Of a stretch of DNA of 64,000 nucleotides, positions 4,160-46,203 are shown one piece after another. Origin of the DNA: Chitinophaga pinensis (GTDB lineage Bacteria > Bacteroidota > Bacteroidia > Chitinophagales > Chitinophagaceae); NCBI GenBank assembly GCA_945872815.1, contig CAMCAY010000001.1, positions 62,001 to 126,000 on the forward strand, read 5' to 3'. Position 1 is the first letter of the stretch; every line of letters begins with the position of its first letter. Position numbers and translations under genes: made by a program. The notes beneath the pieces are model-generated. The model was given only the letters and a program-made list of their open reading frames with translations, had not been told where the DNA came from and made no database searches.

Positions 4160-5290
4160 TTATAACTCACTGATCGAATTAAGAATCTGTTTTACTTCTA
4201 CAATGTCCAACTCGTAATAAAAGGGTAAACGAACTAGGCAGTTTGAAAATTTGTCGGAATTAGCAAGAGCTCTTCCATCATGTTTATTTTTATAGAATTC
4301 ACTGCTATGCAAAGAAAGATAATGAAAAACGGGATGGATATCTTTGTTTTTTAAATGATTGATTAATTTCGTTCTTTGATCAATATTTTGCAGCACCAAG
4401 TAAAACATGTGAGCATTATTAGTGGCGTAAGATGGAATTACAGGCAATGAAATAGATGGAATTTTTAACTTACTTAATTCATCATAATAAGTGTCCCAAA
4501 TTTCATTTCTTTTATTTTGAATATCCTTAATGTTTTCTATTTGTGCCCATAAAAATGCTGCAATAACTTCAGAAGGCAAAAAGGAGGATCCTGTATCTAC
4601 CCATCCATATTTATTAACCTCGCCTCTGAAAAACTCTGCTCTATTCGTTCCTTTCTCCCAAATTATTTCAGCACGATGAACAAATCTTTCGTCATTGACT
4701 ACCAACATTCCTCCTTCACCTGCGATAATATTTTTAGTTTCATGAAAAGAAAATGCAGATAAATGACCTATGCTTCCCAAAGCTCTTTTTTTTCCGTCTT
4801 TGTTTACATGAAAACTGTCAATTGCCTGAGCGGCGTCTTCAATCACTAGCAAATTATATTTATTGGCTAAAGACATAATAGCATCCATATCACAGGCAAC
4901 GCCTGCATAATGAACAGGTACAATGGCTTTGGTTTTCGGCGTAATCAAGCTTTCTATTTTCCCTACATCTATATTAGGATTGTCATAGTAAGAATCAGCA
5001 AACACAACCTTTGCACCTTGCCTTATAAAGGCGATTGCAGTTGAAACAAACGTATAACTCGGAATGATCACTTCATCTCCGGGTTGTATATCTGCAAGTA
5101 TAGCACACATTTCAAGTGCATCAGTACACGAAGTTGTAAGTAAACATTTTTTGAATCCATATTGCTGCTCAAAAAAATCCTGACACATTTTAGTATATTT
5201 CCCATTGCCGGATATTTTTCCTGTTTTTACGGCATCTTCAATGTAATGAGTTTCTTGTCCTGTTAAATAAGGTTTGTTGAATGGTATCAT
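4160..5290 (-). CDS. wecE: dTDP-4-amino-4,6-dideoxygalactose transaminase (WecE/RffA type)
   Basis: This PLP-dependent DegT/DnrJ/EryC1/StrS aminotransferase of 376 residues closely follows the E. coli WecE pattern: MIPFNKP at the N-terminus, TSCTDALEM, PGDEVIIPSYTFVSTA, VPVHYAGVACDMD, IEDAAQ, and the PLP lysine Lys186 in SFHETKN. WecE converts dTDP-4-keto-6-deoxyglucose to dTDP-4-amino-4,6-dideoxygalactose (TDP-Fuc4N) with glutamate as amino donor. Its dTDP-sugar supply genes (rfbA/rfbB) are not in this window, so the substrate must come from elsewhere. The product could feed the formyltransferase or acetyltransferase homologues in the same cluster. The stop lies 2 bases before the next start. 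The family is certain and the exact product likely. Confidence 0.88.
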   Translation of the reverse strand: MIPFNKPYLTGQETHYIEDAVKTGKISGNGKYTKMCQDFFEQQYGFKKCLLTTSCTDALEMCAILADIQPGDEVIIPSYTFVSTAIAFIRQGAKVVFADSYYDNPNIDVGKIESLITPKTKAIVPVHYAGVACDMDAIMSLANKYNLLVIEDAAQAIDSFHVNKDGKKRALGSIGHLSAFSFHETKNIIAGEGGMLVVNDERFVHRAEIIWEKGTNRAEFFRGEVNKYGWVDTGSSFLPSEVIAAFLWAQIENIKDIQNKRNEIWDTYYDELSKLKIPSISLPVIPSYATNNAHMFYLVLQNIDQRTKLINHLKNKDIHPVFHYLSLHSSEFYKNKHDGRALANSDKFSNCLVRLPFYYELDIVEVKQILNSISEL

Positions 5291-5292: not shown

Positions 5293-6423
5293 TTAATTAA
5301 ATTTCTTTTCTTTTATTCTTAAAAAATAAGATTCGAAATATTTATATGAATAATGGCTTACTATAAAAGATAAAATGAATACTGCACAATAAACAAAGAG
5401 ATTATACAAAAACATATTGTTACTAAAGTGTTTTGCCGCAATCGGAAATACTAAAAACATAATTAACGGATGATACAAATAAACTCCATAAGAAATTATT
5501 CCAAATTTTGACAAAAAATTGTTTCTAACCGCTAATGAATTATTATTATCAATTGTAAAGTATAGAAAAAAAAGAAATAAAAAACTGAGAAGGTAAAATT
5601 GAACAGGTATAGAAAAAAAAGGTTTATACATTAACAACGAAATAGCTCCGCAAATCAATATATAAATTTGGGGTAAGGCAGAATACCTAGTTATTGTTTT
5701 TTTATGTTTATGATAAAAATACGCACCTGCAGATCCTATGACCAGGTATTGAAAAATAAAAGCTGTTTCAAATTTATCTGTGATTTTATTTTGAGTCAAT
5801 GAAACAAAAATATAAAGCAAAACCATTGTTGAGAAAAAGTAACCGATTTTCTTTTTATTTATGAATATGATGAAAAGCGGCCAAACTGTATAAAATTGTT
5901 CTTCCAAGCCAATTGACCATAAATGAGATGCACCAATTATAATCTTATGATGCCAAAACAGTAAAACATTTGGAAGGAATAAAATATATAAAAGTATCGT
6001 ATTTAAATTAGCGTAATTAGTAACTAGTATTTCATTATGATAAAATGTATTGTATTTAAACAAGTCAACTGTATTATTTAATGAAGGCATTATTATAAAT
6101 GCAGTTATTAGAATTAAATAATACAAAGGCCAAATTCTCAATACTCTTCTCATACAAAATTTGAAATAGTTTATCTTCCCATTATGCTCTTTTTCTTCTA
6201 AAAGTAAATGAGTGATCAAAAATCCGCTTAAAATAAAAAAAAGCATAACAGCGTAAAACCCCATGTTGCAAAAAAGAAATGCAGTAATTCTTTTGTCAAA
6301 AATATTCGCAACATTTTCTTTGCTCTTGAATTGTTCAATATGTTGTATCAACACTACAATTGCAGCAATACCCCTTATTTCATTGAGGCCCGAAAAATAT
6401 GTCTTTTTATTTTTTGCAATCAA
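5293..6423 (-). CDS. Acyltransferase 3 (OafA/YrhL-type) membrane O-acyltransferase
   Basis: The 376-residue integral membrane protein has about ten hydrophobic helices. The family signatures are visible: GLNEIRGIAAIVVLIQHIE with Arg17 and the conserved His28 in the first helix, and HLWSIGLEEQFYTVWPLF, the W-S-x-x-x-E-x-x-F-Y block. OafA-type proteins move acetyl groups from cytoplasmic acetyl-CoA across the membrane onto sugars. It has the same length as the next upstream gene and matches it along its length, so the pair is a tandem duplication, probably diverged for different hydroxyl positions. The acyl group and target are not known. Confidence 0.9.
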   Translation of the reverse strand: MIAKNKKTYFSGLNEIRGIAAIVVLIQHIEQFKSKENVANIFDKRITAFLFCNMGFYAVMLFFILSGFLITHLLLEEKEHNGKINYFKFCMRRVLRIWPLYYLILITAFIIMPSLNNTVDLFKYNTFYHNEILVTNYANLNTILLYILFLPNVLLFWHHKIIIGASHLWSIGLEEQFYTVWPLFIIFINKKKIGYFFSTMVLLYIFVSLTQNKITDKFETAFIFQYLVIGSAGAYFYHKHKKTITRYSALPQIYILICGAISLLMYKPFFSIPVQFYLLSFLFLFFLYFTIDNNNSLAVRNNFLSKFGIISYGVYLYHPLIMFLVFPIAAKHFSNNMFLYNLFVYCAVFILSFIVSHYSYKYFESYFLRIKEKKFN

Positions 6424-6456: not shown

Positions 6457-7587
6457 TCAACGAATAAACTTCTTTTCTTTCATTCTCAAAAAAAATGTTT
6501 CAAAATATTTAAAAGAAAAATGACTAAGTATACTGGTTAATAAAAAAACAATGAAATATATGACCAGATTGTATAAATACAAGTTTTCTAAAAGATATTT
6601 ATTAGCAGCCGGAATGATAAAATACATCGCCAAAAAATGATACATATATATACCATACGAAACCTTTCCTAAATAAACAATTAATGAATGGTTAAGTAGC
6701 CTAAAGTTACTATTAATGGTTATTAATATTAATGACAAAAACAAAAAGGATAATAGTAAGTTCTGATAGAAGTGATTTGTAATCTCAAAAAATAGTAATA
6801 AAAATATTGCTATTAAAATTAAATAATAAAACAATTTTTTTTGAAGGATATTAATAACCTTTTCTTTATGATATTTATAAATAACTGCTCCCAATGAGCC
6901 AATGGCCATATATTGAAATGGAAAGGTCTTGTTTATTATTTTTAGAAGCGGATTAACAGAATAATTGGTAAAACCAAAAAACAAAATGATAATTAAGAAT
7001 ACTCCTATAATTTTTTTTTTGCTAAATATAATAATGAGCAATGGCCAGAAAAGATAAAACTGTTCTTCTATTCCAACAGACCATAATTGAGAACAACCCA
7101 CAATAAATTTATTATACACCAACAGGGCCACATTGGGAAGAAAACTAATAAAAAGTATAAAACTCTTTCCTGAATAATTTGTTTCATCTATTACTTGAGA
7201 GAAATAATAAGGAGATGCGCTGAAAATATCTATATGTTTCGTCATGAAAGGTAACAACCAAAATGAAACGATTACAATTAAAAAATACAATGGCCATATT
7301 CTGTAAATTCTTCTTAGGTAGAATTTTTTAAGTGAAATGTCCTTATACCAATCTTTCTCATCAAAAAGCAAATAGGTAATTAAAAATCCGCTGAGCACAA
7401 AAAAAAGAAAAACACCATTTTCACCCAAGTGAAAAATAAAAAATCTAAGGTAGCGAAAGTCAAATAAACTAGTAATGCCATCTCTGTATTTATAAAACTC
7501 AATATGATGAAATACAACGGCAAAAGCAGCTATTGCCCTCAAACCATCCAACCCATTAAAATATATTTTTGGCTTTTTGTCTGTCAC
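6457..7587 (-). CDS. Acyltransferase 3 (OafA/YrhL-type), tandem paralogue
   Basis: This 376-residue membrane acyltransferase-3 protein has Arg17 and His27/His28 in GLDGLRAIAAFAVVFHHIE, and QLWSVGIEEQFYLFWPLL as the second family block. It is collinear with the neighbouring 5293-6423 gene over the whole length but clearly diverged, indicating an old tandem duplication. Its start codon overlaps by one base the stop of the NeuD-like acetyltransferase gene, consistent with coupled translation. The likely role is O-acetylation of the exported glycan at the inner membrane. Confidence 0.9.
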   Translation of the reverse strand: MTDKKPKIYFNGLDGLRAIAAFAVVFHHIEFYKYRDGITSLFDFRYLRFFIFHLGENGVFLFFVLSGFLITYLLFDEKDWYKDISLKKFYLRRIYRIWPLYFLIVIVSFWLLPFMTKHIDIFSASPYYFSQVIDETNYSGKSFILFISFLPNVALLVYNKFIVGCSQLWSVGIEEQFYLFWPLLIIIFSKKKIIGVFLIIILFFGFTNYSVNPLLKIINKTFPFQYMAIGSLGAVIYKYHKEKVINILQKKLFYYLILIAIFLLLFFEITNHFYQNLLLSFLFLSLILITINSNFRLLNHSLIVYLGKVSYGIYMYHFLAMYFIIPAANKYLLENLYLYNLVIYFIVFLLTSILSHFSFKYFETFFLRMKEKKFIR

Positions 7588-8219
7588 TACCTGATAAATC
7601 TATGTGGATTTCCTACATAAAGACCCGATGAAGTTATACTACTAATTACAACAGTGCCGGCTCCAATTTGTGTTCTATCTGCAATTTCGATATTGTCTAT
7701 CAATGTGGAATTTATTCCGATGACACACTGTTCTCCTACTTTTACAAAACCTGCAATAGCTACTCTAGGAGACAAAAAAGAATTTCTTCCAATAATTGTG
7801 TCGTGTGCTATTGTACATCCCACATTTAAAATGGAGTTAGCAGATATTATTGCTTTTGAATCAATTATACATCCTGGATATACAACCGACCCCTGTTCAA
7901 TATTCGCGCTCTTATCCACCCAAGCTGATGAATGGATTATTTTACCGAAAGGAATGTTGTGTTGAATAAAATACTCATAGACCTCCTTTTTTTTATTCAA
8001 GTGTTTATATCCGATGGCTATTATCAATTCATGAAAAAGACCGTCATTGAAGGAAGAGAGAATTGTGTCACTACCACCAATTATCTGAAACCCATGTATA
8101 TTTTTTTCTGAGTTAAAATCATCAAAGAAAATTATTTTATCATAATGGTTGTCAGAAACGGCATAATGTGCAATTTGCTGCCCAAGATCTGCTGAACCTA
8201 ATATAGCTAATGTTTTCAC
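7587..8219 (-). CDS. NeuD/PglD-family sugar acetyltransferase
   Basis: The protein is 210 residues. An N-terminal Rossmann-like PglD_N region (MKTLAILGSADLGQQIAHYA) binds the sugar nucleotide, and a left-handed beta-helix of hexapeptide repeats follows from about residue 100 to 205. The catalytic histidine of the family is visible as His139 in GCTIAHDTIIG. PglD acetylates the 4-amino group of UDP-4-amino sugars and NeuD-type relatives O-acetylate sialic acid. With a WecE-like aminotransferase in the cluster, N-acetylation of a 4-amino-4,6-dideoxy sugar is a reasonable inference. It overlaps its upstream neighbour by 4 bases. Confidence 0.88.
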   Translation of the reverse strand: MKTLAILGSADLGQQIAHYAVSDNHYDKIIFFDDFNSEKNIHGFQIIGGSDTILSSFNDGLFHELIIAIGYKHLNKKKEVYEYFIQHNIPFGKIIHSSAWVDKSANIEQGSVVYPGCIIDSKAIISANSILNVGCTIAHDTIIGRNSFLSPRVAIAGFVKVGEQCVIGINSTLIDNIEIADRTQIGAGTVVISSITSSGLYVGNPHRFIR

Positions 8220-9163
8220 TGTTTTTTTTCCTTATTTATGTTGATATACTCTTTTACAGAAAACAAAGGTCTGTTTTTGGATTCTTTATAAATCCTTCCG
8301 ATGTATAATGAAACGATTCCAAGAAAAAAGAGCTGTACTCCAATACCAATTATAATCAATGAAATGGTAGATGTCCAACCTGTTTGATATTCAATAAAAA
8401 ATACTTTTTCAATTGCGAGCAATATTAAACTAGCTATTCCAGCAAGTATAAATATAAACCCCAATCTTACTGCAAATTTCAAAGGCAATTCTGAAAAATC
8501 AAAAATAGCATCAAATGCCAACTGCATCTTCTTTTTGAAATTAAACTTAGTGGTTCCTGCAAATCTTTCTCGCTGTTCTATTTCTATTGTTGTATAATTC
8601 ATTCCCACTTTCATAAACAAGCCTTCTACAAATCGGTTTGTTTCTTTATAAGCCAATAAATTTTCTGCAAATGATTTCGTAAACATTCTCATAACTGCAA
8701 TTCCTTTTGGAATTGCAAGACCTGTATATTTATTTAGTGTTCCCCAGAAAATTTTTGAATATAATCGGTTGATAAATGAGTCTTTTTTTTCTATTCTGAT
8801 ACCCCACACCAAATCATACCCTTTTTCAATTGTTTCCAGAAATCTAGGTATTTCCTTAGGCGGATCTTGTAAGTCTGGGTCCATATATAAAATATAATCT
8901 CCTGTGGCATAAGTAAATGCGGCTGTTGCGGCAAATGCCTTTCCGTGGTTATAAGAAAGTACTAGCAACTTGATTTTATCGTTTGTTTTAGCCGCTTCTT
9001 TTATAATTTGTACCGTATGGTCTTTACTACCATCATCCACAAAAACATACTCATACTCTATATTTAAAGAATCTAGCACTTCCTTTGTTTCAATTAAAAA
9101 TTGCAAGATGACTTCCTGCTCATAATAAACCGGTACAGCTAAGGATAGTTTCTTTTTTAACAC
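8216..9163 (-). CDS. DPM1/GtrB-like polyprenyl-phosphate glycosyltransferase
   Basis: The protein has 315 residues with a GT2 domain followed by two C-terminal transmembrane helices (about residues 235-257 and 268-295). Signatures are SLAVPVYYEQEV, FVDDGSKDHT, YMDPDLQDPP (metal-binding DPD) and RFAGTTKFNFKKKMQLAFDAI, the typical R-x-G-x-S/T-K/F segment of DPM1/ArnC/GtrB enzymes. These load a sugar onto undecaprenyl phosphate, giving a donor for periplasmic GT-C enzymes. The membrane GT-C protein at 2606-4147 is the natural candidate partner, though that link is inferred. It overlaps the HAD gene upstream by 7 bases. Confidence 0.9.
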   Translation of the reverse strand: MLKKKLSLAVPVYYEQEVILQFLIETKEVLDSLNIEYEYVFVDDGSKDHTVQIIKEAAKTNDKIKLLVLSYNHGKAFAATAAFTYATGDYILYMDPDLQDPPKEIPRFLETIEKGYDLVWGIRIEKKDSFINRLYSKIFWGTLNKYTGLAIPKGIAVMRMFTKSFAENLLAYKETNRFVEGLFMKVGMNYTTIEIEQRERFAGTTKFNFKKKMQLAFDAIFDFSELPLKFAVRLGFIFILAGIASLILLAIEKVFFIEYQTGWTSTISLIIIGIGVQLFFLGIVSLYIGRIYKESKNRPLFSVKEYININKEKKQ

Positions 9164-9798
9164 AAATAATTATTTAATTCGTTTAATGATTTAATTCTGT
9201 TTTCAAATGCAGGATAATATTCTTCCCTGTCAATCAAAATCGCATTCAATCCAAGCTCCTGCGCAGGTTTAATATCCAGCTTCAAAGAATCTCCCACATA
9301 AATTATTTCTGCAGGGTTAATATCTATTTTTTCAATTGCTTTTTGATAAAATAATTTATCAGGCTTAGCAACCCCCAATTCTTCCGAAACAAAAATATCT
9401 TTAAATTCCACATCAAAAAATGTTTTTAATTTTTCTTTGAGCGTAGAATTAAAGTTAGAAATAATTCCAGCCGGTATTTTAGTTTCATTTAAGTAATGAG
9501 TATCAGAAAATTTTTCCCAGGGCAAGTAGGTGCATGCATCAAAAATTTGATTTAGTAATTTTTCGTTTGGGATGACTCCAAGAGAAAATAATAAATCGCT
9601 ATTAAACTTTTGATAAAATGTCACATCTGTTTGATCTGGAAAAATATAACACTCTGATAATATTTTGTGTTGGGCTTTAATTTTTTTCTCTTCAAAATCA
9701 AATCCATTTTGTTGTAGTACTTTTTGAATAGAAGTAAAAACTGCAGGTTTATGTAACAATGTACCTGCCACATCAAATAAAATATATTTAGGCTGCAT
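9157..9798 (-). CDS. HAD-superfamily hydrolase
   Basis: The 213-residue HAD protein has motif I ILFDVAGTLL (nucleophile Asp9), a helical cap of roughly residues 18-90, motif II IISNFNST, motif III near KPDKLFYQKA and motif IV VGDSLKLDIKPA. The second aspartate of the usual D-x-D-G-T motif is replaced by alanine (Asp9, Ala11), as in phosphonatase-type motif I, so ordinary phosphomonoesterase chemistry is not guaranteed. In this cluster it may act on a sugar phosphate or a nucleotide-linked intermediate. It sits between an ATP-grasp enzyme and a polyprenyl-phosphate glycosyltransferase. Confidence 0.83.
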   Translation of the reverse strand: MQPKYILFDVAGTLLHKPAVFTSIQKVLQQNGFDFEEKKIKAQHKILSECYIFPDQTDVTFYQKFNSDLLFSLGVIPNEKLLNQIFDACTYLPWEKFSDTHYLNETKIPAGIISNFNSTLKEKLKTFFDVEFKDIFVSEELGVAKPDKLFYQKAIEKIDINPAEIIYVGDSLKLDIKPAQELGLNAILIDREEYYPAFENRIKSLNELNNYLC

Positions 9799-9816: not shown

Positions 9817-10794
9817 CTAATAAACAATGAAACTGCTCGAATTGTTATTTAACTCAGTTTCATTTGTTGCGCCGGGATAAATCACATCATACAGAAGTCT
9901 GACAGCTATACCATTGATCGTTTTTACTTCATCCGGTTCTTCATTGTATAAATATTCCTGCACAGTATATTTCACATCCTGAAACCCAAGATTGTGTCTG
10001 ATTGAATTAGTTCCTGAAATTCTGCAATTCACTTCAAATGGAATAATTTGTTCATTTTCATCCACAATACATTGCAAATTAATGCTTCCTGCAAGGCCTC
10101 CTGCTGCAATCATTTTTTCGACAATGAGCATTATTTCGTTGTCATATTTTTTAGTTACAATGGATTTTGAAGTAGCTCCATTACTTAGTTCTCTTTCCAT
10201 GGTAAACATTCCGTGAAACGCTCCATTCTTTTTTACATAAAAAGCAGTAGTGATTTCTTTCCCTTTATGCAAAGGCTGTATCATAAACTCGTCGCTATAA
10301 TTTGCTGGGGAAGGTGGGTTTTTTTGAATACCTCTTGATCCTCTACCTTCACGAGGTTTAAGAATAATCTCTTCGCAAGATCCGTCATAATCTTTAGGAA
10401 GCCAAGATTTAGCAAATGGAATGTCTTTTTCACAATGATGTAAAAATGTGAGATATTTATCTAAGTATATTTTTGCAGTATCTGCATCACTGGCGGCTAT
10501 ACCTGTTCCAATTGTAGACTTATTCAATGATAAATAATAAACCTCGTAGTCGGTTGTAGGAATTATTAAATCAACTTTCTCTTTTGTGACAATTTCTTGT
10601 ATGGCTGGAATATACAAACTATCATACGCGTACGGAACTTTATAGGTTACATCACACAAGTGATTCCCAGCCGTAAAGCTTGCAATATCAATGCCCACAA
10701 TTCTGATGTTCTTATTTAAAGAAGCTATGTTTCTTAATACACCCTGACCAACGTTGCCGCCAATACCGGTTACTAAGACTGTCTTTGTTTCCAT
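9817..10794 (-). CDS. ATP-grasp carboxylate-amine ligase-like protein (CarB-like)
   Basis: About 325 residues. The start is set at METKTVLVTG, because the upstream ATG at 10842 would run 70 bases into the epimerase gene. The N-terminus is a Rossmann-like VTGIGGNVGQGVLRNI segment. ATP-grasp features follow: ILKPREGRGSRGI (ATP-binding lysine and glycine-rich loop) and IPFEVNCRISGTNSIR, which carries the Mg-binding E and N residues. Relatives are labelled carbamoyl-phosphate-synthase-like or carboxylate-amine ligases. In glycan clusters they may attach amino acids or modify sugar carboxylates, but no substrate is known here. A second ATP-grasp gene lies at 36682-37725. Confidence 0.8.
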   Translation of the reverse strand: METKTVLVTGIGGNVGQGVLRNIASLNKNIRIVGIDIASFTAGNHLCDVTYKVPYAYDSLYIPAIQEIVTKEKVDLIIPTTDYEVYYLSLNKSTIGTGIAASDADTAKIYLDKYLTFLHHCEKDIPFAKSWLPKDYDGSCEEIILKPREGRGSRGIQKNPPSPANYSDEFMIQPLHKGKEITTAFYVKKNGAFHGMFTMERELSNGATSKSIVTKKYDNEIMLIVEKMIAAGGLAGSINLQCIVDENEQIIPFEVNCRISGTNSIRHNLGFQDVKYTVQEYLYNEEPDEVKTINGIAVRLLYDVIYPGATNETELNNNSSSFIVY

Positions 10795-11612
10795 TGAATA
10801 ATTTTTTTTAACTCCAACGAAAGGTCGGCTTTCGGATACCAATTTAATTCATTTCTTGTAAAACGATTGTCAAAATGATTTGATAAAGACGAATCGGAGT
10901 TTACAAAATTAATTTCGGCATTTGTAAAATTGGATATCTTTTGCGCTAATTCCACATTACTATGTTCTTTATCAGAAACACCTAAGTATATTTTTTTATC
11001 CCAAATGTCTCTGTGAACAATATTATCAATAAGGTTTACAACATCACTTACATGAATATAATTTTGCTTTCTGTTTCCATTACCCCAAACCTCAATCTTT
11101 TGATCGTTTATTGCTTGATTAATATAATTAGGTATAATCGTATTTTCTTTCATTCCTATGCCATATAATGAAGATAATCTAACAACAACAGCTTTGTCTG
11201 TTTTCAAAACTAGATTCTCAGCCTGCAATTTTGAAGCAGCATAATCTGAAGCTGGTGCTACATTTGAACTTTCTATTTTTATTTCATCGCTTTGTTCATA
11301 AACGGAAGCGGTTGATATATATATATGTTTGGCTTTTGGAAAAGCATTTATTATTTTTTCTGTTGCAACAACATTTGCTTCAAACAATGTTTCTTTGTCA
11401 ACACTATTTATTCCAGATGAAACAGCTGCATGACAATGAAGAACAACATCGGGAGTTGATTTAGCTTGTTCAAGATGTTGAAAAGAGTATACAGGTATGT
11501 TGGGGTGATTGGAAATAGAATGACTGATTCCCACAATGTCATATTTAGTAGCAAGACTTTCAACTGCTTTAGAACCTAAAAAACCAGAAATACCTGTAAT
11601 TGCAATTAACAT
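10773..11612 (-). CDS. NAD-dependent epimerase/dehydratase (extended SDR)
   Basis: The 279-residue protein has the Rossmann motif ITGISGFLG at residues 5-13, the STASVYE segment and the catalytic pair Tyr124/Lys128 in YAASK. Family members epimerise, dehydrate or reduce nucleotide sugars. It is slightly shorter than typical GalE/RmlD proteins (about 300-340 residues). It overlaps the ATP-grasp gene by 22 bases and follows the first HTTM gene by 6 bases, so it is part of the same transcript. The exact sugar reaction cannot be assigned. Confidence 0.87.
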   Translation of the reverse strand: MLIAITGISGFLGSKAVESLATKYDIVGISHSISNHPNIPVYSFQHLEQAKSTPDVVLHCHAAVSSGINSVDKETLFEANVVATEKIINAFPKAKHIYISTASVYEQSDEIKIESSNVAPASDYAASKLQAENLVLKTDKAVVVRLSSLYGIGMKENTIIPNYINQAINDQKIEVWGNGNRKQNYIHVSDVVNLIDNIVHRDIWDKKIYLGVSDKEHSNVELAQKISNFTNAEINFVNSDSSLSNHFDNRFTRNELNWYPKADLSLELKKIIQWKQRQS

Positions 11613-11618: not shown

Positions 11619-13535
11619 CTATCTGATATTGTTAAAAACAGAATCCATTTTTTTATTCCAATAATAATTTACTTGCCCATTTTCTATTTTACATAAACCT
11701 GCTTCATGCCATGGTTTTTTAATTTGCTTACGCAAGAAGTCTTTTTCCCATGTGCGGGGTTTATCAATGTCTTTAACATACAGCTTGAACATCAGATTGT
11801 TTTCTCTTATTTTTTCATCTTTTATAAAATAATTTAAATATGAAATCAACCCTTTTTCTAAATTTTTTTTATTTGTTTGAAATTCAAACATTGAATATGA
11901 AATTCCAAAAGCATAGTCTCTCCAGGTTGGGCCACTGATATATTTTGCAGGCATTCCTTTGTTGTCAACTATTGGAACCAAAATCTCTTCATTTATTTTA
12001 TTTAAACATGTGACCTTATAAATATGCGTGTAATTGTAAAAATGCTCATTTAAAAAAACGGTATGTCTCATCACACCTAAATATTTTTTTGTAATAAATT
12101 TTGTTCTATAATATATCAAATGTACAATTTGATCAATGGAATTGTTTTTAGAAATTCTTGACTGTATTAATGGTGTTGTCCAAATTACTAGACACTGACA
12201 AAAGAAGAACACTGTTATTATTGTCTTCCAAAAAAAGATTGTTATATTTTCTTTACTCAATCGCGTTAAGACTAATTTTGTTTTTGCTTTTTTGAATAAA
12301 TATTTTTTTTCAATACTTTCATTATAAATCACTCCTTTTAATTTGCGCTTTGAAATTTGACAATAAAGCTTCTTACTTAAAATAGAAATTCCAGGCAACA
12401 TCATTAATACGGCAATGGGGATTGTATATATTAAATGAATTAATAGTTGAACGTAAACCTCATAGCCAACAAAAACTTTTTCTGCCCTACTTACTCCATG
12501 AACCTTCATTAAAAGTTCTTTTTCCGTTATGTCTTTTAGCGATGCTTTCATCCTCGTAATTTTCTGAACAGGTAGGAAAAGTATTTTATTAAACAAGTCC
12601 ATGTGTTTTACAACTATTACAAGTTTATTATGTAACGGACTTCCTAAATCATAATAAATTGAAAAAGTGGGAGATTTACTCTTAAATAAATTTGATATTC
12701 CTTTCCAATATTTTTCAGGCAACAATAATAAATACAAGGAAATGAAAGTCAATGCAAACCAGGGAATAGGATAAATAATAAAAATTCCTATGTGGAATAG
12801 TATTCCAATGATCATTAAAGGGACTTTTAGCCCTTTAATCCAAAAAAGAAAAATGAATAACCCTTCAAAAACGATTACAAAATACCCTAAAAACTTTATT
12901 AAAAACTCTTGATTCAAAATAATACTCGTATCATTCCAAACAACCATAGGTAAGCTTGCAGGGAGCCACATTCCCAATCCATTTAGCCATAAAGGACTTG
13001 ACAACTTAAGAAAAATTGAATCGAAATAAACCAATGCGATTCCTGCAAATACAAGAATCATATAGTTTATTTCCAACACCATTCTATCTATTTTATACTC
13101 ATGACCTATTTCAGAATATTTAATTTTTTTAATCAAACAATCTAAAGAAAAAACCCTAGAAACTGGAATAAAAAGTAATAAAAAATTGACAGTAACATAA
13201 ATGTAAAAAATATGATACTCATAATAATTTGCTGAACTGAAGATAATCACACCAAAGATGTAGTTTAATGTCAGTGCAATTCGGGTAAAGAGACCAATCA
13301 TTATCAATCCCAATATTAAAAACCAAAAGAAAAAGAGAAATGTGACATCTATTTCCCCAACCGTTACAAATGGATTCTTATCGTAAATAATATGCCTGAA
13401 CTTATATAATTGTGATATTTCGCAAAACAAAACCACTGCATATAAAATTCTGAATACTGCCAAGCCCAGTGCATCAACTTTATTGTTAAATACGCTATTG
13501 CATTTGGATTTTATTTTTTGAAAGAACTTCATCAT
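11619..13535 (-). CDS. HTTM-DUF393 fusion membrane protein, copy 1 (cysteines lost)
   Basis: This 638-residue protein is in three parts. Residues 1-285 are a polytopic HTTM (vitamin K-dependent gamma-carboxylase-like) domain with DALGLAVFRILYAV and FRHIIYD at the start. Residues 290-400 align with the DUF393/DCC thiol-disulfide oxidoreductase domain of its neighbours. A membrane helix near residue 435 is followed by a C-terminal domain ending in WEKDFLRKQIKKPW. The two DUF393 cysteine pairs present in copies 2 and 3 are replaced: the CPLC position reads SPLH (residues 299-302), and the C-terminal RC...SC pair is absent. The thiol chemistry is therefore probably lost, while the fold and the rest are kept. 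It overlaps copy 2 by 4 bases. Confidence 0.8.
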   Translation of the reverse strand: MMKFFQKIKSKCNSVFNNKVDALGLAVFRILYAVVLFCEISQLYKFRHIIYDKNPFVTVGEIDVTFLFFFWFLILGLIMIGLFTRIALTLNYIFGVIIFSSANYYEYHIFYIYVTVNFLLLFIPVSRVFSLDCLIKKIKYSEIGHEYKIDRMVLEINYMILVFAGIALVYFDSIFLKLSSPLWLNGLGMWLPASLPMVVWNDTSIILNQEFLIKFLGYFVIVFEGLFIFLFWIKGLKVPLMIIGILFHIGIFIIYPIPWFALTFISLYLLLLPEKYWKGISNLFKSKSPTFSIYYDLGSPLHNKLVIVVKHMDLFNKILFLPVQKITRMKASLKDITEKELLMKVHGVSRAEKVFVGYEVYVQLLIHLIYTIPIAVLMMLPGISILSKKLYCQISKRKLKGVIYNESIEKKYLFKKAKTKLVLTRLSKENITIFFWKTIITVFFFCQCLVIWTTPLIQSRISKNNSIDQIVHLIYYRTKFITKKYLGVMRHTVFLNEHFYNYTHIYKVTCLNKINEEILVPIVDNKGMPAKYISGPTWRDYAFGISYSMFEFQTNKKNLEKGLISYLNYFIKDEKIRENNLMFKLYVKDIDKPRTWEKDFLRKQIKKPWHEAGLCKIENGQVNYYWNKKMDSVFNNIR

Positions 13536-15409
13536 TTAAAATTCAACCAATGAAATGAAAATTTATTTTTTTCCATCTTACAGGTTCCTGTTAATTTCCA
13601 TGGCTTCTCTATTTGTTTTTTCAAAAAATCCTTTTCCCATTTTTTGGGGATTTCAATCTCTTTAATATATATATTAAAACAAACGTCAGATAAATTGATG
13701 TTATTTTCTTTACCGAAATATTTTAAAAATGGAATCACTCTTTCTTCAAACGTATAATAATTGGATTGCTGTTTTGTTACATCAAATGCTGTAAAAAAAG
13801 TATAATAGCACCAAAGGGGGCCTATATTGTAACAACCCGACATGCCATTATTTCTAATGATTGGAAGTGTTATTTCTTTATTGTTATATAAACAAGTGAC
13901 TTTAAAAATGCGATTGTTTTTATCAAAATGATCGTTTAAAAATACCGTGTGATTAGTCACTCCAAAATATCTTTTGAAAATATATTTTGTATTATAGTAA
14001 CCGCTGAGCGCGAATCGATTAACTGATTGTAACATTGAAGTCCTTCTTTGGACTAAAGGTGATACCCAAATAACAAGTATCTGCCCAATGATAAAAAGAA
14101 AAAACATGCATTTCCAAAATGATTTGGATACGCTAAGCTGATTCCAGCCTGAAATTAAATAATCGTCTGTTTCATGAGGAGGTGGAGTATATACAGGAAT
14201 AATACAGGATTCTTCTGTACACCTTTGATTTAGCCTATTTCCTGCGATATGTCTGTATAATTTTTTTCCAATTAATGAAACTCCCGGCAACATCATCAAT
14301 AATGCAACAGGGTAGGTAAAGAATAATTTTTTAAGGAGTTCAATGTAGGCATCATACCCAACAAAAACTTTTCCTTTTTTAGTTACTCCATGAATATTGA
14401 TCAATAATTCATTTTCGCTGTATTTTTTTAATAACGGGTCTTCCATTGCATTGCCTTGTACAGTTATACAGTCGATTTTTTTAAATATATCTAGGTGCCT
14501 AATGAACACGACTGTTTTAATACAAAGCGGGCACTCTGCATCATAGTAAAACTTATACGTTTTTATGTTCCCCTTTATTAATTTTCCCAGTTTAAGCCAA
14601 AATTTTTCCGGTAACAACAATAAATAAATAGCCATCACGGAAATAGCAAATAAAGGAATAGGATAAATGTAAAGTATGCCGATGTGAAATAGAATTCCAA
14701 TAATCATTAATGGAACTCTCCATATTTTAAACCAACACAAAAAAATAAATGCTCCTTCAAATACAATGACAAAATATCCTAAGAACTTCATCAGCCATTC
14801 ATTATTCAAAATAAAACTTACATCGTTCCATGTCATCATCGGTAAACTAGAAGGAAGCCACATTCCCAAACCATCTAACCACATTGGACTATTTAGTTTT
14901 TGAAAAATAGAATCAAAATAAACCAAACCGATACAGGCAAATACGGGAAAAAAATAATTAATCTCCAGAATTTTTCTATCTATATCATAAAATTTATTTA
15001 TGCTGCTGTATTTTAACTTTTTTAATAAGCTATCGAATGACAACACCCTTGATACGGGCATAAACATGAATAAAAAATTCACCGTAACGTATAAGTAGTA
15101 TACATGATAGGAGACCATTTTAGCGGAACTGAAAATGATCACACCAAATATATAATTTAATATGGTGGCAGTTCTTGTGTACAATCCCAATAACAATAAG
15201 CCTAAAACAATGAACCAGAATATGAATATGAATGTGGTGTCAATTTCCCCGATATATTGAAAGGGTATGTTGTCATAAATCAAGTGTCTGAATTTGAACA
15301 ATCTTGAAATTTCAACAAGTAATACTAATGAATATAATATTCTAAATACAGATAAGCCGAGAGCGTCTGTCTCTTGATTCAATATTTTTTTAAAAATCAG
15401 TTTGTTCAA
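13532..15409 (-). CDS. HTTM-DUF393 fusion membrane protein, copy 2
   Basis: The 625-residue paralogue has an N-terminal HTTM domain (about residues 13-285, many hydrophobic helices; TDALGLSVFRILYSLVLL near the start). A DCC/DUF393 domain follows with the redox motif YYDAECPLC (Cys293, Cys296) and the family-typical second pair Cys397/Cys402. A further helix lies near residue 435, and the C-terminal domain ends with WEKDFLKKQIEKPW. DUF393 proteins are thioredoxin-like; HTTM domains are homologous to gamma-glutamyl carboxylase membrane regions, but bacterial roles are mostly unknown. I infer a membrane redox or modification enzyme tied to this glycan locus. It is flanked by two paralogues. Confidence 0.82.
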   Translation of the reverse strand: MNKLIFKKILNQETDALGLSVFRILYSLVLLVEISRLFKFRHLIYDNIPFQYIGEIDTTFIFIFWFIVLGLLLLGLYTRTATILNYIFGVIIFSSAKMVSYHVYYLYVTVNFLFMFMPVSRVLSFDSLLKKLKYSSINKFYDIDRKILEINYFFPVFACIGLVYFDSIFQKLNSPMWLDGLGMWLPSSLPMMTWNDVSFILNNEWLMKFLGYFVIVFEGAFIFLCWFKIWRVPLMIIGILFHIGILYIYPIPLFAISVMAIYLLLLPEKFWLKLGKLIKGNIKTYKFYYDAECPLCIKTVVFIRHLDIFKKIDCITVQGNAMEDPLLKKYSENELLINIHGVTKKGKVFVGYDAYIELLKKLFFTYPVALLMMLPGVSLIGKKLYRHIAGNRLNQRCTEESCIIPVYTPPPHETDDYLISGWNQLSVSKSFWKCMFFLFIIGQILVIWVSPLVQRRTSMLQSVNRFALSGYYNTKYIFKRYFGVTNHTVFLNDHFDKNNRIFKVTCLYNNKEITLPIIRNNGMSGCYNIGPLWCYYTFFTAFDVTKQQSNYYTFEERVIPFLKYFGKENNINLSDVCFNIYIKEIEIPKKWEKDFLKKQIEKPWKLTGTCKMEKNKFSFHWLNFK

Positions 15410-15454
15410 TTATTAAAGTTAAATGTCAAAATGAATATTAATAAGGTAAAATTT

Positions 15455-17371
15455 CTAGTTGAGCCAATGACTAGTGTTTATTTCTTTTTTAAATAGATCT
15501 TTCATATATACACTCCATTCAAAATAAACTTCATTGGAACTAACGAAACATCTACCGGCTAATTTCCATGGTTGGGAGATTTGTTTATTTGAAAAATCTT
15601 TTTCCCATTTTTGGGGTGATTTATATTCTTTAATATAAATCAAAAATTCATTTTTTTGATTTATAAATTTGTTTTGTGAAAGAAAATATTTTAAATATGG
15701 GCTTAATCCGGGTTCGAGAACAGATCTGCATAACAATGGCGAAATAACATTAAAGGAGTAGTTTCTCCATGTTGTACCTGTTAAATACGCATCAGGCATT
15801 CCGTTGGAGTCTAGCAATGGAACTAATTTTTCTTTGTTGTTTTGTAAATAGGTTATTTTAAGGGTATGATTAAAATCCTTAAAATGGGATTCTAAAAAAA
15901 CAGGATGATACGTACATCCAAAATATCCCCTTAATACATCTTTGGTATTATTGTATAAATAAATGGGAATTTTATTAAGATAAAAATTATCCGGAAGCCT
16001 TCTAATTACTGGTGGGGAAATCCATATTAACATGCATTGACTTAAAAATAAAAACATCATTACCCATTTCCAAAAGTTCTTTGACAGGTTATGCCTATTC
16101 CATCCCTTTATTAATAAATCGTCGTTTTCTGAAAAGGGCAATCGATATGATGGTAAAGGGCAGCTTTGAATTGTACATCTTTGAGTTATTCTTTTACCAG
16201 TAATTTTTTGATATGTTTTTTTACCTAAAAATGAAACCCCAGGAACAGACATTAACATCGAAAGAGGATACGTGTATATTAAATATTTAAAGAGCTGAAC
16301 ATAGGCATAATAACCAACAAATACTGTTCCTTTTCTGTTCACTCCATGAATATTTATCAATAATTGTTCTGCTGAAATATTATTCAGTGCTTTTTCTTTT
16401 TCAGAAAATTGCTGAACCGAAAGACAGCTCACATTGTTAAATAAATCAAAATGCTTTATTGCAACAATCACCTTATTGCATAATGGACATTCGGAATCAT
16501 AATAAAATGAAAAGTGTGGTTGTTTGAATTTAAATGTTGTAGAGATTTTTGTCCAAAAACTTTCCGGTAACATTAACAAGTAAACTACAATTAAACTTAG
16601 CGCAAACCATGGTATAGGGTATATAATTAGTATTCCAATATGAAAAAATATTCCAATTAGCATTAGGGGAATTCTTAATTTTCGAAACCAAAATAAAAAA
16701 ATAAACATTCCCTCAAATACTAAAACAAAATAACCCAGAAATTTCATGAATATTTCCTGATTTAAAAAAACACTGGTGTTGTTCCAAGTAACCATAGGTA
16801 AACTGGAGGGCAGCCACAAACCCAAACCGCTTCGCCACATTGGACTGGATAGTTTTTGAAAAATGGAATCAAAGTAAACAATTGCTATAGCAGAAAAAAT
16901 AAGGACGAGATAATTAATTTCGAGTACTTTTCTATTCGGCTTGTACTGAAATCCAATATTGGAATATTTTATTTTTTGAATTAAACTGTCAACCGAAAAT
17001 ACCCTGGAAAGCGGGATAAACATTATTAAAAAATTTATACCTACGTAAATATAAAATATGTGATATTCAAAAGTATTAGCGGAACTAAATATGATAACAC
17101 CAAATAGGTAGTTCAGTATGGTTGAAAATCTTGTGAAAAGACCTAACATCAACATCCCTAAGACAATGAACCAAAAAAAGAAAATAAAAGTAACGTCGAT
17201 TTCGCCAATACTTACAAAGGGGTCTTTGTCATATATAACATGTCTGAATCTGAATATTTGAGAAGTTTCACAAAGCATTACTAATGCATATAGTAACCTA
17301 AATACAGACAATCCCAATGCATCAATTTTGTTGTTGAATATCTCTTTGAATGTCTTTCGAATGTTTATCAT
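15455..17371 (-). CDS. HTTM-DUF393 fusion membrane protein, copy 3
   Basis: This 638-residue paralogue has the HTTM domain at about residues 15-275 (IDALGLSVFRLLYALVML, FRHVIYD), DUF393 at 288-405 with YYDSECPLC (Cys295, Cys298) and the distal pair Cys399/Cys404. A membrane helix near 435 precedes the C-terminal domain with HPVFLESHF and WEKDFSNKQISQPW. All catalytic-type cysteines are present. The start overlaps the stop of the upstream glycosyltransferase gene by 4 bases, so it is embedded in the polysaccharide operon. The molecular function is unknown; the fusion and triplication are described under findings. Confidence 0.82.
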   Translation of the reverse strand: MINIRKTFKEIFNNKIDALGLSVFRLLYALVMLCETSQIFRFRHVIYDKDPFVSIGEIDVTFIFFFWFIVLGMLMLGLFTRFSTILNYLFGVIIFSSANTFEYHIFYIYVGINFLIMFIPLSRVFSVDSLIQKIKYSNIGFQYKPNRKVLEINYLVLIFSAIAIVYFDSIFQKLSSPMWRSGLGLWLPSSLPMVTWNNTSVFLNQEIFMKFLGYFVLVFEGMFIFLFWFRKLRIPLMLIGIFFHIGILIIYPIPWFALSLIVVYLLMLPESFWTKISTTFKFKQPHFSFYYDSECPLCNKVIVAIKHFDLFNNVSCLSVQQFSEKEKALNNISAEQLLINIHGVNRKGTVFVGYYAYVQLFKYLIYTYPLSMLMSVPGVSFLGKKTYQKITGKRITQRCTIQSCPLPSYRLPFSENDDLLIKGWNRHNLSKNFWKWVMMFLFLSQCMLIWISPPVIRRLPDNFYLNKIPIYLYNNTKDVLRGYFGCTYHPVFLESHFKDFNHTLKITYLQNNKEKLVPLLDSNGMPDAYLTGTTWRNYSFNVISPLLCRSVLEPGLSPYLKYFLSQNKFINQKNEFLIYIKEYKSPQKWEKDFSNKQISQPWKLAGRCFVSSNEVYFEWSVYMKDLFKKEINTSHWLN

Positions 17372-18390
17372 ATACTCTGCATAATTTTTTTTATGCTTTT
17401 AAACTGCAGAAGTGCGTTTATAAAATCCTTATTAAATGCTGTGGCTTTTGCTTTGTTTATTTTTTTTCCAATCGACAACTCATCGAGACTATATCTTGAT
17501 GGTTTTATTAAACTTCTTATTTTGAATTGGAGCCAAATGAAATTGTGATAAAGCAAAGACTGTGTATAGCGAAATAGAAATTTTGTGTAACTTGGTTTAT
17601 TTGATTTTAAAAATAAATAGTAAGGAAAAAGTCTTGATTCACCTGAGGCAATCCCTGTTTTCAATTTCAAATAATATTCCCAGGTCATTCTTTCTTTGCT
17701 CATGTAATGATAAAACTTCAATTCACTACTATACCATAAATCAAAATCAGCTAATTGTATCATCAAGCACCATTCTGTATCTTCTCCTCTTGTTAATTCC
17801 TTTCCATTGGGACCAACCATAATGGTGGAGTAATTATTGTCATAATACTTAATCAAAACTTCTTTTCTAAAAAAACTACCGGCACTATACAACTGACTTT
17901 TTGAATGAATTGATATTTTTCCCTCTTTTTTTGATTGTGATCCTACCGCAAAAGATTTTGAATACTTATCAAACCAGTCGGGCTTTTGATCTTCAAATAA
18001 TGGAATACCTTGTCCACCCAAAACTCCAATAGTTTCGTTGTCATTTAAAATAGACCATGCCTTTTCTAAATAATCAGGATATAAATGATTGTCATCGTCA
18101 CAAAACAACAACCATTTGTATTGCACTTCCTGTAACCCTTTTAATCTTGCATGATTACAACCTTGTCTTGATTCAAAAACAATTTTGGATTTGTTTTCAA
18201 ACGAATTGCTTTCAATCATGTTTCTGCAAAATTCTGCGGTATCATCAGTAGAAGCATTGTCAACAATAATTAATTCCCATGGAATTTCTACAGTTGTTTG
18301 TTGTGAGAAAATTGATAACAAAGTAGGACGCAATCTTTTTGCTCCGTTATAGGTGCATATTACTATAGATATTCCGTTTGGAAGAGCCAA
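17368..18390 (-). CDS. Family 2 glycosyltransferase
   Basis: A 340-residue GT2 with ISIVICTYNGAKRL at the N-terminus, IIVDNASTDDTAEF, and the metal-binding CDDDNHLYPDYL. GEDTEWCLMIQL gives the ED acceptor-side motif and is followed by a basic helical tail. It is similar in layout to the 23725-24780 protein, including the segment after the DXD (GVLGGQG, SAGSFFRKEV), so the two are probably paralogues with different specificity. It ends 4 bases inside the first HTTM-DUF393 gene of the tandem set. Confidence 0.88.
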   Translation of the reverse strand: MALPNGISIVICTYNGAKRLRPTLLSIFSQQTTVEIPWELIIVDNASTDDTAEFCRNMIESNSFENKSKIVFESRQGCNHARLKGLQEVQYKWLLFCDDDNHLYPDYLEKAWSILNDNETIGVLGGQGIPLFEDQKPDWFDKYSKSFAVGSQSKKEGKISIHSKSQLYSAGSFFRKEVLIKYYDNNYSTIMVGPNGKELTRGEDTEWCLMIQLADFDLWYSSELKFYHYMSKERMTWEYYLKLKTGIASGESRLFPYYLFLKSNKPSYTKFLFRYTQSLLYHNFIWLQFKIRSLIKPSRYSLDELSIGKKINKAKATAFNKDFINALLQFKSIKKIMQSI

Positions 18391-27222: not shown

Positions 27223-28173
27223 TCAATAACCTTTTGTTTGTTTGTTTGTTGATTCAGTATTTGAAATAATATTATTCAGCTTAATTGTAAGCTTTTTAGC
27301 GCCATTTTCGTTTAGGTGGTCTGCATCAAAGTAATCCTCTTTTCTAAACGAAGTGTCATTTATAAAATTGTAATAAACAACATTTGAATTGTTTTTTTCG
27401 AAAGAACTCCCAATTTTGGCCACTTTTTCGAATGTGTTTTTATCAAATGCATCAATATAGTATTTGTATGCGGGAGGGGTGAAAAGTATTAATTTTACTT
27501 TTTTCTTTTTACAAAAATGGATGATTTTTTGAAATTCCAAAAAATTGTCTCCCAAAAAATCGTTACTATTTTTTTTATGTCTTTCAGCTGCAGTTTTTCC
27601 TGAAATTTTTAAATCGACAAATTTTTGTACTGGTTTAAAATAACCTAATCGGTCGCAAGGTCTATCTGAAATCAAATCAAAAGTGTTTCTTTTATAATAA
27701 ATCCACCATAATCTTTTAAAATTTAATGAAAGAGGATTATTAAATATATTGAGTGTACTAAAATAAAACTCGGGAAATTTAAAACCATAATCCATGATAT
27801 AGTATTTGACTCTGTAGCTTTCACTTCCGTATTCAAGTCTGTTATATAAAGAATAATAGTCTATCGGTAATAATATGTATTTCAAACTATCAGCACGATT
27901 GATATAGTTCTCTAAAATTTCAGCATCAAAATTTATAGATTGAGAAAAATAAGCTGCATTAAAAGCATTTTGTTGAATAAACTCAGGATTACAACCACAA
28001 TAAGAATGCGAATTCCCAAGAATCAATATTTTAATTTTATTAGAGTTAGAATCTAAATAATTTTTTTTGTAGGTATATACATTAGGTATTTGAAAAAGCA
28101 TGCTTTCCATTATGGAAAAAATACAAACTAATGGCAAAAGAAATAAAGAAGTTTTTTTTATAAAAAAAGTCAA
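27223..28173 (-). CDS. Membrane-anchored SGNH/AlgJ-like protein, copy 1
   Basis: A 316-residue protein with one N-terminal membrane helix (about residues 8-27) and a presumably periplasmic body. The SGNH-type nucleophile motif is LILGNSHS (Ser55, His56), and the catalytic D-x-x-H triad end is DADHLNENG (Asp283, His286). This arrangement is shared with DltD/AlgJ-like O-acetyltransfer partners of MBOAT proteins. The gene is first in order after the MBOAT gene, 85 bases away. It is one of four tandem paralogues, so a role in acetylating the exported glycan is inferred. No closer family name can be given. Confidence 0.75.
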   Translation of the reverse strand: MTFFIKKTSLFLLPLVCIFSIMESMLFQIPNVYTYKKNYLDSNSNKIKILILGNSHSYCGCNPEFIQQNAFNAAYFSQSINFDAEILENYINRADSLKYILLPIDYYSLYNRLEYGSESYRVKYYIMDYGFKFPEFYFSTLNIFNNPLSLNFKRLWWIYYKRNTFDLISDRPCDRLGYFKPVQKFVDLKISGKTAAERHKKNSNDFLGDNFLEFQKIIHFCKKKKVKLILFTPPAYKYYIDAFDKNTFEKVAKIGSSFEKNNSNVVYYNFINDTSFRKEDYFDADHLNENGAKKLTIKLNNIISNTESTNKQTKGY

Positions 28174-28280
28174 ATTTGAATACTTAAAAGAATGATTTAA
28201 AGAACTATTGCTGCATTAAAAACATAAATCTGACTGATAAATTTAAAACACTGTTAATTATTTGCAGCTTCGTAATGTAA

Positions 28281-29213: not shown

Positions 29214-29231
29214 AATAATCTATTTGTACAT

Positions 29232-30172
29232 TTAATGTAGCAGTTGATTTATTTTAAAGGTTAGTTTTTCAGCACCTTTTTCATTTAGATGATCTGAATC
29301 AAAGAAATCTTCAGTATGAAAACTTGTGTCAATGAGAAAATTATAATAGGCAACATTTTTATTCGTTTTTGATATAGAATCAGCAATATTGATTGTTTTC
29401 GAAATTTGATATTTATCTAAGTGTTTTACGTAAGATTTATGCGCAGGCATTGTAATAAAAATCAACTTAATATTTTTACGATTGGTATATCTCAAAATCG
29501 AATCTATTATCACTATGCTTGAGGAAACTTTTTATTGTTAATTGAATGCTGAACAAATGCCCTAAAACTACCATTATCAATCATTTCCTTTTGTATGGGA
29601 TAATTATCGTTAAATGAATTTCCCAGATTTTTACAATATTTATGAGATATTGAATTTGTATAAAATCGAATTATTCTAGAAATATTTGCAGAAAACTTGT
29701 TGTTTAAAATTTCAAAATAATAAGAAATTTTAAAGCCTTGATGCATTCCGTAATAAATATTATAATTCTTGATTCTGTTTTCCTCCCAACCATCTGAAAA
29801 TCTTGTAAATAATGTAAAATAATCGATTGGGATAACTAGATATTTCAAGTTTTTAAACCTAGTTGAATACTTTTCAATTAACATATAATCATAGTCAATT
29901 GTTTGACTGCCATGAGATGCTTTAAAAGATCTTAATTGTATAAATGCGGGGTTAATATCATAAGACACATGAGAGTTTCCTAAAAACAGCACTTCGATTT
30001 TTTCGGCATTTTCATCAAGGTATTTTCTTTTGTATGAATAATCGTTTGGAATATTTCTCAATATTAGTTCTATGGTCACAAGAAATATAAACAATGGTAA
30101 TAAAAAGAAAAATAATTTAATTGTCCATTTTTTTATTGAATAACCTAATTGTAGATTTTGAATATAAATCAA
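29232..30172 (-). pseudogene. SGNH/AlgJ-like protein, copy 3, split by a frameshift
   Basis: The 5' part (29513-30172) encodes 219 residues with the anchor helix and LFLGNSHVS (Ser67), then stops shortly after RAFVQHSINNKKFPQA. The remainder of the family (from IVIIDSILRYTNRKN to the DSDHLNEKG triad end) continues in the -1 frame to 29232. Inserting one A into the A5 run (T5 at 29529-29533 on the plus strand) rejoins the frames exactly where the paralogues align. The second half could start only at a GTG (29511-29513). Either this is a recent disruption, a sequencing error at a homopolymer, or a phase-variable switch. The nucleophile and the Asp/His pair are now on separate frames. Confidence 0.78.
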
Positions 30173-46191: not shown

Positions 46192-46203
46192 TTCAATAAA
46201 ACG

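Follow-up and report, generated by a model that had tools for sequence, protein, structure and literature searches.

A GGCX-like membrane core with an inserted DCC domain, triplicated in a glycan gene cluster of Chitinophaga pinensis

In a 64,000-nucleotide stretch of a Chitinophaga pinensis assembly (GCA_945872815.1, contig CAMCAY010000001.1, positions 62,001 to 126,000; hereafter the window), three consecutive minus-strand open reading frames (ORFs) of 638, 625, and 638 amino acids (aa) encode proteins that are 50-53% identical to one another and combine an HTTM membrane region, a DCC1-like domain, and a C-terminal part (HTTM-DCC-X). A sequence-only reading of this DNA had noticed three consecutive genes for 625-638 aa proteins between a GT2 and a sugar epimerase, and both the sizes and the placement are confirmed. 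The triplet is flanked by a GT2 glycosyltransferase (17368..18390, minus strand; Pfam PF00535; syntenic in L010, the related genome described below) and an NAD-dependent epimerase/dehydratase (10773..11612, minus strand; Pfam PF01370), and it lies inside a glycan cluster of roughly 40 kb in which the recognised genes on the same strand include glycosyltransferases, methyltransferases, acyltransferases, an ABC ATPase, and aminotransferases. The overlap with neighbours claimed earlier exists between copy 1 and the GT2 gene and between copies 2 and 3 (4 nt each), but gaps of 45 nt and 6 nt separate copies 1 and 2 and copy 3 and the epimerase. The real find, as we see it, is a membrane core resembling vitamin K gamma-carboxylase (GGCX) together with its association with an amino-sugar cassette.

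All three genes were delimited from ORFs, Pfam matches, and a residue table, and the coordinates below are likewise on the minus strand. Copy 1, which is transcribed first (15455..17371), and copy 2, which has a TTG start (13532..15409), keep both the CxxC motif and a second Cys pair in the DCC domain, whereas copy 3 (11619..13535) has lost all four cysteines. Against the PF05090 cut-off of 27.7 bits, the HTTM region scores 34.3 bits in copy 1 (aa 13-269, 16565..17335; E 2.4e-8) and exactly 27.7 bits in copy 3 (aa 17-268, 12732..13487; E 2.5e-6); copy 2 (aa 11-267, 14609..15379; E 3.9e-5) falls under the cut-off when scanned alone (23.8 bits) and reaches 27.9 bits when the scanned frame includes its neighbours. 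The DCC1-like domain (PF04134, cut-off 27.8 bits) scores 53.2 bits in copy 1 (aa 290-395, 16187..16504; E 8.8e-14), 61.4 bits in copy 2 (aa 288-394, 14228..14548; E 2.4e-16), and exactly 27.8 bits in copy 3, where it is degenerate (aa 293-398, 12342..12659; E 6.4e-6). Behind it follow the last membrane helix and the C-terminal domain, placed by alignment or modelling at about aa 432-638 in copy 1 (15455..16078), about aa 430-625 in copy 2 (13532..14122), and about aa 433-638 in copy 3 (11619..12239). Because a Pfam scan of the three proteins gave no family beyond HTTM and DCC1-like at E<=0.1, the C-terminal 190-210 or so residues are without a family assignment.

The family that we recovered comprises 18 proteins in 14 loci. 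An independent metagenome-assembled genome (MAG) of Chitinophagaceae (L010) has a triplet of identical gene order beside the same neighbours, its orthologues being 65, 77, and 77% identical to the window copies. Phylogenetic trees group every window copy with its L010 counterpart (support 100/100), and the triplication is therefore older than the split between the two genomes; it is old but local, the triplet being present in 2 of the 14 loci and a single gene in the others. A recent duplication or an assembly artefact is ruled out by the same orthologous triplet. Single-copy members occur in a Cytophagaceae MAG (L011), in genomes G665 (L042) and G599 (L043), in 8 of the 197 genomes searched from G070's family (L081-L088), and on a 316 kb plasmid of Hymenobacter volaticus (L089:9935-11587), where the protein is DCC-less and annotated as hypothetical and was the sole match in 72,556 plasmid records. 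Full-length relatives numbered 0 in viral contigs and 0 in phages, and 58 other genomes, 35 of them congeners, yielded none, with weak matches to the HTTM part in 3. A contig scan with two narrow peptide patterns returned 2 loci, and absence from it means little because the members of G070's family found later had slipped through. The 13 loci outside the window all lie among glycan genes rather than scattered away from them, so the polysaccharide link drawn in the sequence-only reading stands. The triplication itself proved exceptional.

The resemblance to GGCX rests on structure prediction, profile comparison, and residue conservation. A template-free AlphaFold model of copy 2, made with 7 of the 18 proteins as input sequences, was compared with solved chains by VIA-align, and human GGCX chains took ranks 1-14 (Z 7.0-8.5 over 236-255 residues), with the alignment beginning at model residue 2-4 on GGCX 31-32. 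As modelled, the membrane core thus has its best match, of all solved chains compared, in human GGCX, and the DCC part resembles glutaredoxin/GST folds. When the HTTM part of the family was aligned profile to profile (hhalign) with carboxylase-type proteins of bacteria, the probability was 99% and E about 1e-18, and one of those bacterial proteins aligns with human GGCX along almost its entire length (E 1e-44). When the DCC columns were removed, the alignment with the carboxylase-type proteins extended into the last membrane helix and its score was 142.8 rather than 132.5. Because the DCC-free alignment reaches the last helix and the model ranks GGCX first, the protein is most aptly described as a GGCX-like core into which a DCC domain is inserted ahead of the last membrane helix. 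The succession of HTTM, DCC, and C-terminal domains described earlier is thus right as to the domains that Pfam detects but not as an anatomy of three domains in a row.

One study (PMC12589487) assigns the role of base to GGCX K218 and places W223, F294, and F299 among the aromatics of the vitamin K pocket. The counterpart of K218 is Lys in 18/18 family members (Lys171 of copy 2, 14897..14899), those of W223 and F299 are W and F in every member, and that of F294 is either Y or F throughout. Invariant columns among all 18 proteins number 43 of 273 in the membrane core, 14 of 194 in the C-terminal part, and 0 of 110 in the DCC domain; without the DCC-less Hymenobacter row the counts are 53, 17, and 1. 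A PDB search with a 3-member profile returned only chance matches (histones, best E 0.55), and hydropathy and counts of K+R gave no clear membrane topology.

The DCC domain bears directly on the earlier proposal that these proteins act through thiol redox. In such a system HTTM would be the anchor of a thiol-disulfide oxidoreductase, which would protect glycan enzymes or activate them, and we consider this improbable, the least likely of the explanations weighed here. A DCC1-like domain is indeed detected in all three window copies, both CxxC cysteines are present in 12/18 members, including all 8 from G070's family, and a separate DCC gene stands directly beside the HTTM gene in at least 3 of 20 control HTTM loci (L052, L055, L060). 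Yet the cysteines are incomplete in the other 6. In copy 2 the CxxC is C293/C296 (14522-14533), whereas copy 3 has SPLH in place of CPLC (aa 299-302, 12630-12641), S and H replacing the CxxC cysteines, and its second Cys pair is gone as well. Its L010 orthologue likewise lacks the CxxC cysteines, and L010 copy 1 lacks one of them; G665 and G599 no longer have the motif, and with the membrane core kept, the DCC domain is eroded in L043 and absent in Hymenobacter. Just one of the 110 DCC columns is invariant even in the 17 members besides L089. Because both CxxC cysteines are found in only 12/18 members and neither of them in window copy 3, thiol chemistry is an unlikely core function, and we rejected it as the main explanation; the label of thiol domain given earlier fits copies 1 and 2 but not copy 3.

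The domain has also evolved unevenly within the triplet. Comparing the window with L010 by nonsynonymous divergence (dN) alone, synonymous divergence (dS) being high, we obtained DCC/HTTM values of 0.269/0.144 for copy 1, 0.115/0.122 for copy 2, and 0.218/0.059 for copy 3. The DCC domain of copy 2 thus evolves as slowly as its HTTM region, unlike those of copies 1 and 3, which evolve 1.9x and 3.7x faster, and this suggests that copy 2 carries the working DCC of the triplet, though window copy 1 keeps all four cysteines. Since the DCC of copy 2 is constrained and that of copy 3 is without cysteines, the three copies probably target different positions or cooperate.

The C-terminal domain has two His and a Gln (H487, H494, and Q443; last helix of the C-terminal part) that are invariant in the family, and searches of profile and structure libraries gave it no significant or plausible family. 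A separate model of the copy 2 domain (md3922af4ccfe, mean predicted local distance difference test score, pLDDT, 67; C-termini of 7/18 proteins as input) placed five GGCX chains in the top 13 VIA-align rows, matched to about GGCX 400-504 (one chain from 355), but their Z of 3.3-3.9 is equalled by unrelated rows; the best Foldseek E with this model was 1.2. A Pfam scan of 9 members at E<=10 turned up 5 families, none of them plausible or present in more than one member, the best E being 0.0073. The family's C-terminal profile does not align significantly with carboxylase C-termini (hhalign; 24/200 shuffles reach the score).

Other HTTM loci provided a comparison of another kind. We examined 20 control loci, which are chosen HTTM hits and no random draw; the HTTM gene is accompanied by an SdpA-like gene in 16, at least three of which also have a separate DCC gene, and is of the carboxylase type in 4. 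From these loci we built an SdpA-like profile that omits 2 of 19 upstream partner proteins as outliers (L068 10714-11487, L056 8786-9289). The parts of our proteins thus occur unfused elsewhere, and HTTM (SdpB-like), DCC, and the C-terminal domain (SdpA-like) could be a fused sdp peptide-maturation module acting on a peptide or protein encoded in another place. The score of the C-terminal profile against the SdpA-like profile tops most column shuffles, with 5/198 reaching it, but the hhalign probabilities are 0.4% and 0.1%, and the SdpA-like hidden Markov model does not find the HTTM-DCC-X family above noise. Nor does the SdpB family (NCBIfam TIGR04033) match any of the three window copies at E<=0.1, and the genes that adjoin them are glycan genes, so that we hold this explanation to be quite unlikely.

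Several features of the control loci are of interest in their own right. Among nine SdpA-like proteins tested, 2 reach Pfam family DUF5819 and 7 are without a Pfam family over cut-off, and one HTTM partner weakly matches the SdpB model, below cut-off. The Bacteroidota sdp-like operons in L050, L053, L054, L055, L062, and L068 each show a small ORF with a signal-like start, an SdpA-like gene with an F-[AS]-P motif, and an HTTM gene, and that of L055 (16262-18649) carries a separate DCC gene as well. Among the matches listed, which cover the neighbours of L059 and L060 in part, relatives of the window aminotransferase or epimerase appear only in L066 and L069, over 6 kb away from HTTM, and in L056 and L067 ABC ATPase relatives lie at the far edge. 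Because L069, a carboxylase-type locus, has rmlC/rmlD- and export-like genes about 6 kb from its HTTM gene, polysaccharide genes may also lie near a carboxylase-type HTTM gene.

The HTTM-DCC-X genes have neighbours of a different kind. In the window the order is three HTTM genes, the epimerase, a PylC-like ATP-grasp ligase (9817..10842; Pfam PF21360/PF02655 and profile search), a HAD-family hydrolase (9157..9798; Pfam PF13419; syntenic), a GT2 gene, a NeuD/PglD-type sugar acyltransferase (7587..8219; NCBIfam TIGR03570, 166.3 bits, cut-off 160.8), two acyltransferases, and a WecE-type dTDP-4-amino-4,6-dideoxygalactose transaminase (4160..5290; NCBIfam NF008687, 550 bits, cut-off 375), all on the minus strand. 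The epimerase, first gene of the shared cassette, holds the same place in L010, L042, L043, and L084. The succession HTTM, epimerase, ATP-grasp, HAD, NeuD, and DegT/WecE recurs in G665, G599, and L084, and in L011 without the epimerase; identity to the window aminotransferase is 63-68% for the enzymes of G665, G599, and L011. Seven further loci have HTTM, an ATP-grasp_4 ligase, NeuD, in some an acyltransferase, and WecE; Pfam identifies the ligase in L081 and L082, and the remaining five ligases were recognised by being 74-87% identical to that of L082. In L089 a DegT aminotransferase (25% identical to that of the window) precedes the gene and a NeuD-like hexapeptide acyltransferase follows it. 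Leaving aside L010, whose contig ends after the epimerase, we found that all 13 loci with readable flanks have, within 7 kb, a WecE/DegT aminotransferase as well as a NeuD-type acyltransferase, and 12 of them an ATP-grasp ligase. In an order-level sample of 298 genomes the PylC-like ATP-grasp (E<=1e-40) occurred in 4, namely the 3 with a full-length HTTM protein and G668, which has a shortened gene and lacks the cassette neighbours (Fisher 9e-7, uncorrected for kinship or linkage). The link to glycans is therefore well supported, and since the relatives travel with the same amino-sugar genes, a probable role is sugar modification of the cell coat.

A role during export, as the sequence-only reading had it, is not borne out, although the idea of a membrane-bound modification system fits the GGCX-like core: ABC ATPases occur in some loci (the window and L081-L088, but also L073 and L074, which are without the HTTM gene), and the L042 and L043 genes stand directly behind Wza/Wzc-like genes.

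Elsewhere in the window, the cluster has another PylC-like ATP-grasp, a protein with a formyltransferase domain, and another DegT aminotransferase (36682-37725, 38398-39474, and 41051-42130), which suggest a second modified amino sugar. The two acyltransferases in the triplet's operon are tandem membrane proteins of 376 aa each with an Acyl_transf_3 domain (5293-6423 and 6457-7587). Four consecutive ORFs of 316, 310, 219, and 301 aa behind an MBOAT gene (27223-31074) match no Pfam family over cut-off, with one weak DUF1574 and one weak DUF5626 match among them. The GC content is about 0.27-0.32 in the first 44 kb of the window and about 0.33-0.34 at 44000-64000.

Taken together, these observations point to a menaquinol-dependent, lysine-base membrane enzyme that would modify an acylated 4-amino-sugar of a surface polysaccharide, a reading to which we give a probability of about one half. 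Each copy would consist of the GGCX-core membrane bundle, with its base lysine and naphthoquinol-pocket aromatics, a last helix, and a C-terminal domain that would be periplasmic if the topology is that of GGCX; on the same assumption the thioredoxin-fold DCC, inserted in the loop before the last helix, would be cytoplasmic. The sugar would come from the WecE transaminase, NeuD-type acyltransferase, and ATP-grasp ligase encoded next door. By analogy with GGCX, the lysine would deprotonate menaquinol, which would react with O2, and the strong base so formed would remove a proton from a substrate carbon. The presumptive substrate is a 4-amino-4,6-dideoxyhexose carrying an acyl or aminoacyl group, on which the enzyme would act from the periplasm before the glycan loses its link to the membrane. 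Addition of CO2 would then yield a gamma-carboxyglutamate (Gla)-like group, with oxygenation or elimination as alternatives.

Several findings weigh against this reading. The full model is poor (mean pLDDT 52), and a Z near 8 is at the edge of the informative range of VIA-align. The 18-member family profile alone found no PDB chain at E<=1, and a PDB-chain match at 6e-29, from the alignment by which the residue counterparts were mapped, is owed partly to three carboxylase-type sequences included in it. A His near GGCX H160 is present in 17/18 members (Met in Hymenobacter), but in an ungapped alignment it falls on N159 and reaches the H160 counterpart only with a gap, both being Glu-pocket residues. 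The window's genome has no match to VKOR (PF07884) for recycling of the epoxide, if one is formed; the DCC could help there in copies that have cysteines, though not in copy 3. No ATP-grasp was recognised near the L089 gene. In a phylum sample of 395 genomes the full-length protein was found in the window genome only, which was also the only one with it among the 4 genomes with the ATP-grasp; these searches scored the best candidates per genome (at most 3 in the phylum sample and 4 in the order sample), and the absences are not strict. L073 and L074 hold the full epimerase-ATP-grasp-HAD-NeuD-WecE cassette without HTTM, with a glycosyltransferase directly before the epimerase. L084 and L085 have nearly the same HTTM (94% identical), glycosyltransferase (96%), and WecE (96%) but unlike ATP-grasp genes (21.6% identity, E 9e-6).

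The last two comparisons are also informative about how the gene is used. In L084 the HTTM gene sits exactly between the glycosyltransferase and the epimerase that adjoin each other in L073 and L074, and relative to the HTTM-less cassette its glycosyltransferase is 79%, epimerase 49%, ATP-grasp 71%, and NeuD 76% identical. Because the whole cassette occurs without the HTTM gene in L073 and L074 and with it in L084, this gene is an optional addition that the cassette does not need. Because L084 and L085 share the HTTM protein and differ in the ATP-grasp, the HTTM substrate appears compatible with two ligases. These two loci amount to a natural module swap, in which near-identical glycosyltransferase, HTTM, and WecE genes flank different ATP-grasp/NeuD segments (L084:10000-16241, L085:4911-10891).

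An optional gene is what one would expect of a decorating enzyme of any chemistry, and its presence in L084 and absence from the syntenic L074 would suit a membrane acyl- or group-transfer or scaffold role in glycan assembly, free of quinone chemistry and with a GGCX likeness confined to the shared bundle. The low confidence of the copy 2 model and the glycan-cluster location throughout the family also speak for such a role. Set against them are the catalytic lysine and the pocket aromatics, which are among the conserved residues (the lysine, W, and F invariant), and the strong profile match to carboxylase-type proteins, and we judge it unlikely. Within the quinol-lysine reading that we prefer, the boldest version is a menaquinol-dependent glycan carboxylase: the acyl or aminoacyl group on a lipid-linked 4-amino-4,6-dideoxyhexose would be carboxylated to malonate-like, metal-binding groups, with the copies acting at different residues or positions. 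This version, too, seems unlikely to us.

GGCX-type chemistry is established for proteins and for a few bacterial peptide-like products. If glycans are indeed modified, quinol-driven carbon-acid chemistry would extend to surface sugars, and proteins that Pfam and NCBIfam label merely as HTTM and DCC would acquire a role. The single-copy loci should allow the substrate to be deduced from syntenic clusters with and without the gene, such as L084 and L074. In the open-access literature we found no paper on HTTM-DCC proteins of glycan clusters and none joining an HTTM domain with DCC, papers on HTTM and polysaccharide being unrelated by title and the start of the abstract; subscription papers lay outside the scope of the search.

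Compared with known systems, the HTTM-DCC-X proteins form a distinct branch of the superfamily that is bound to polysaccharide clusters of Bacteroidota. They share the PF04134 match, which reaches or exceeds the cut-off in each copy, with DCC1-like thiol-disulfide oxidoreductases, but their DCC sits inside another enzyme and is often without cysteines. With SdpB/SdpA-type systems (the 16 loci among L050-L068) they have the HTTM core in common, and DCC as a separate neighbour in some of those loci; unlike them, they have a glycan cassette and a C-terminal domain that is not demonstrably SdpA-like. CrdG, the HTTM protein of the linaridin corynaridin cluster, likewise belongs to a biosynthetic cluster and has an unclear mechanism, but the cluster is a ribosomal peptide cluster, and the passage that describes it mentions no DCC (PMC9927463).

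The closest comparisons are with carboxylases. Bacterial carboxylase-type HTTM proteins (454-503 aa; L064, L065, L056, L069) share the membrane core at the 99% profile match but have no DCC, a soluble C-terminal domain whose score against ours is reached by 24/200 shuffles, and, in the loci inspected (partly by eye), no glycan genes next to their own; malonomycin has an antibiotic-pathway relative. Human GGCX (PDB 9l20, 9bvo, and others) differs from our family in lacking both the DCC insertion before the last helix and a glycan neighbourhood, and the family's C-terminal domain is much smaller (about 190 aa including the helix) and weakly matched to GGCX 405-504 (Z 3.9). What the two have in common is the order and length of the core, the counterparts of K218, W223, F294, and F299, and a last helix that is followed by a further domain.

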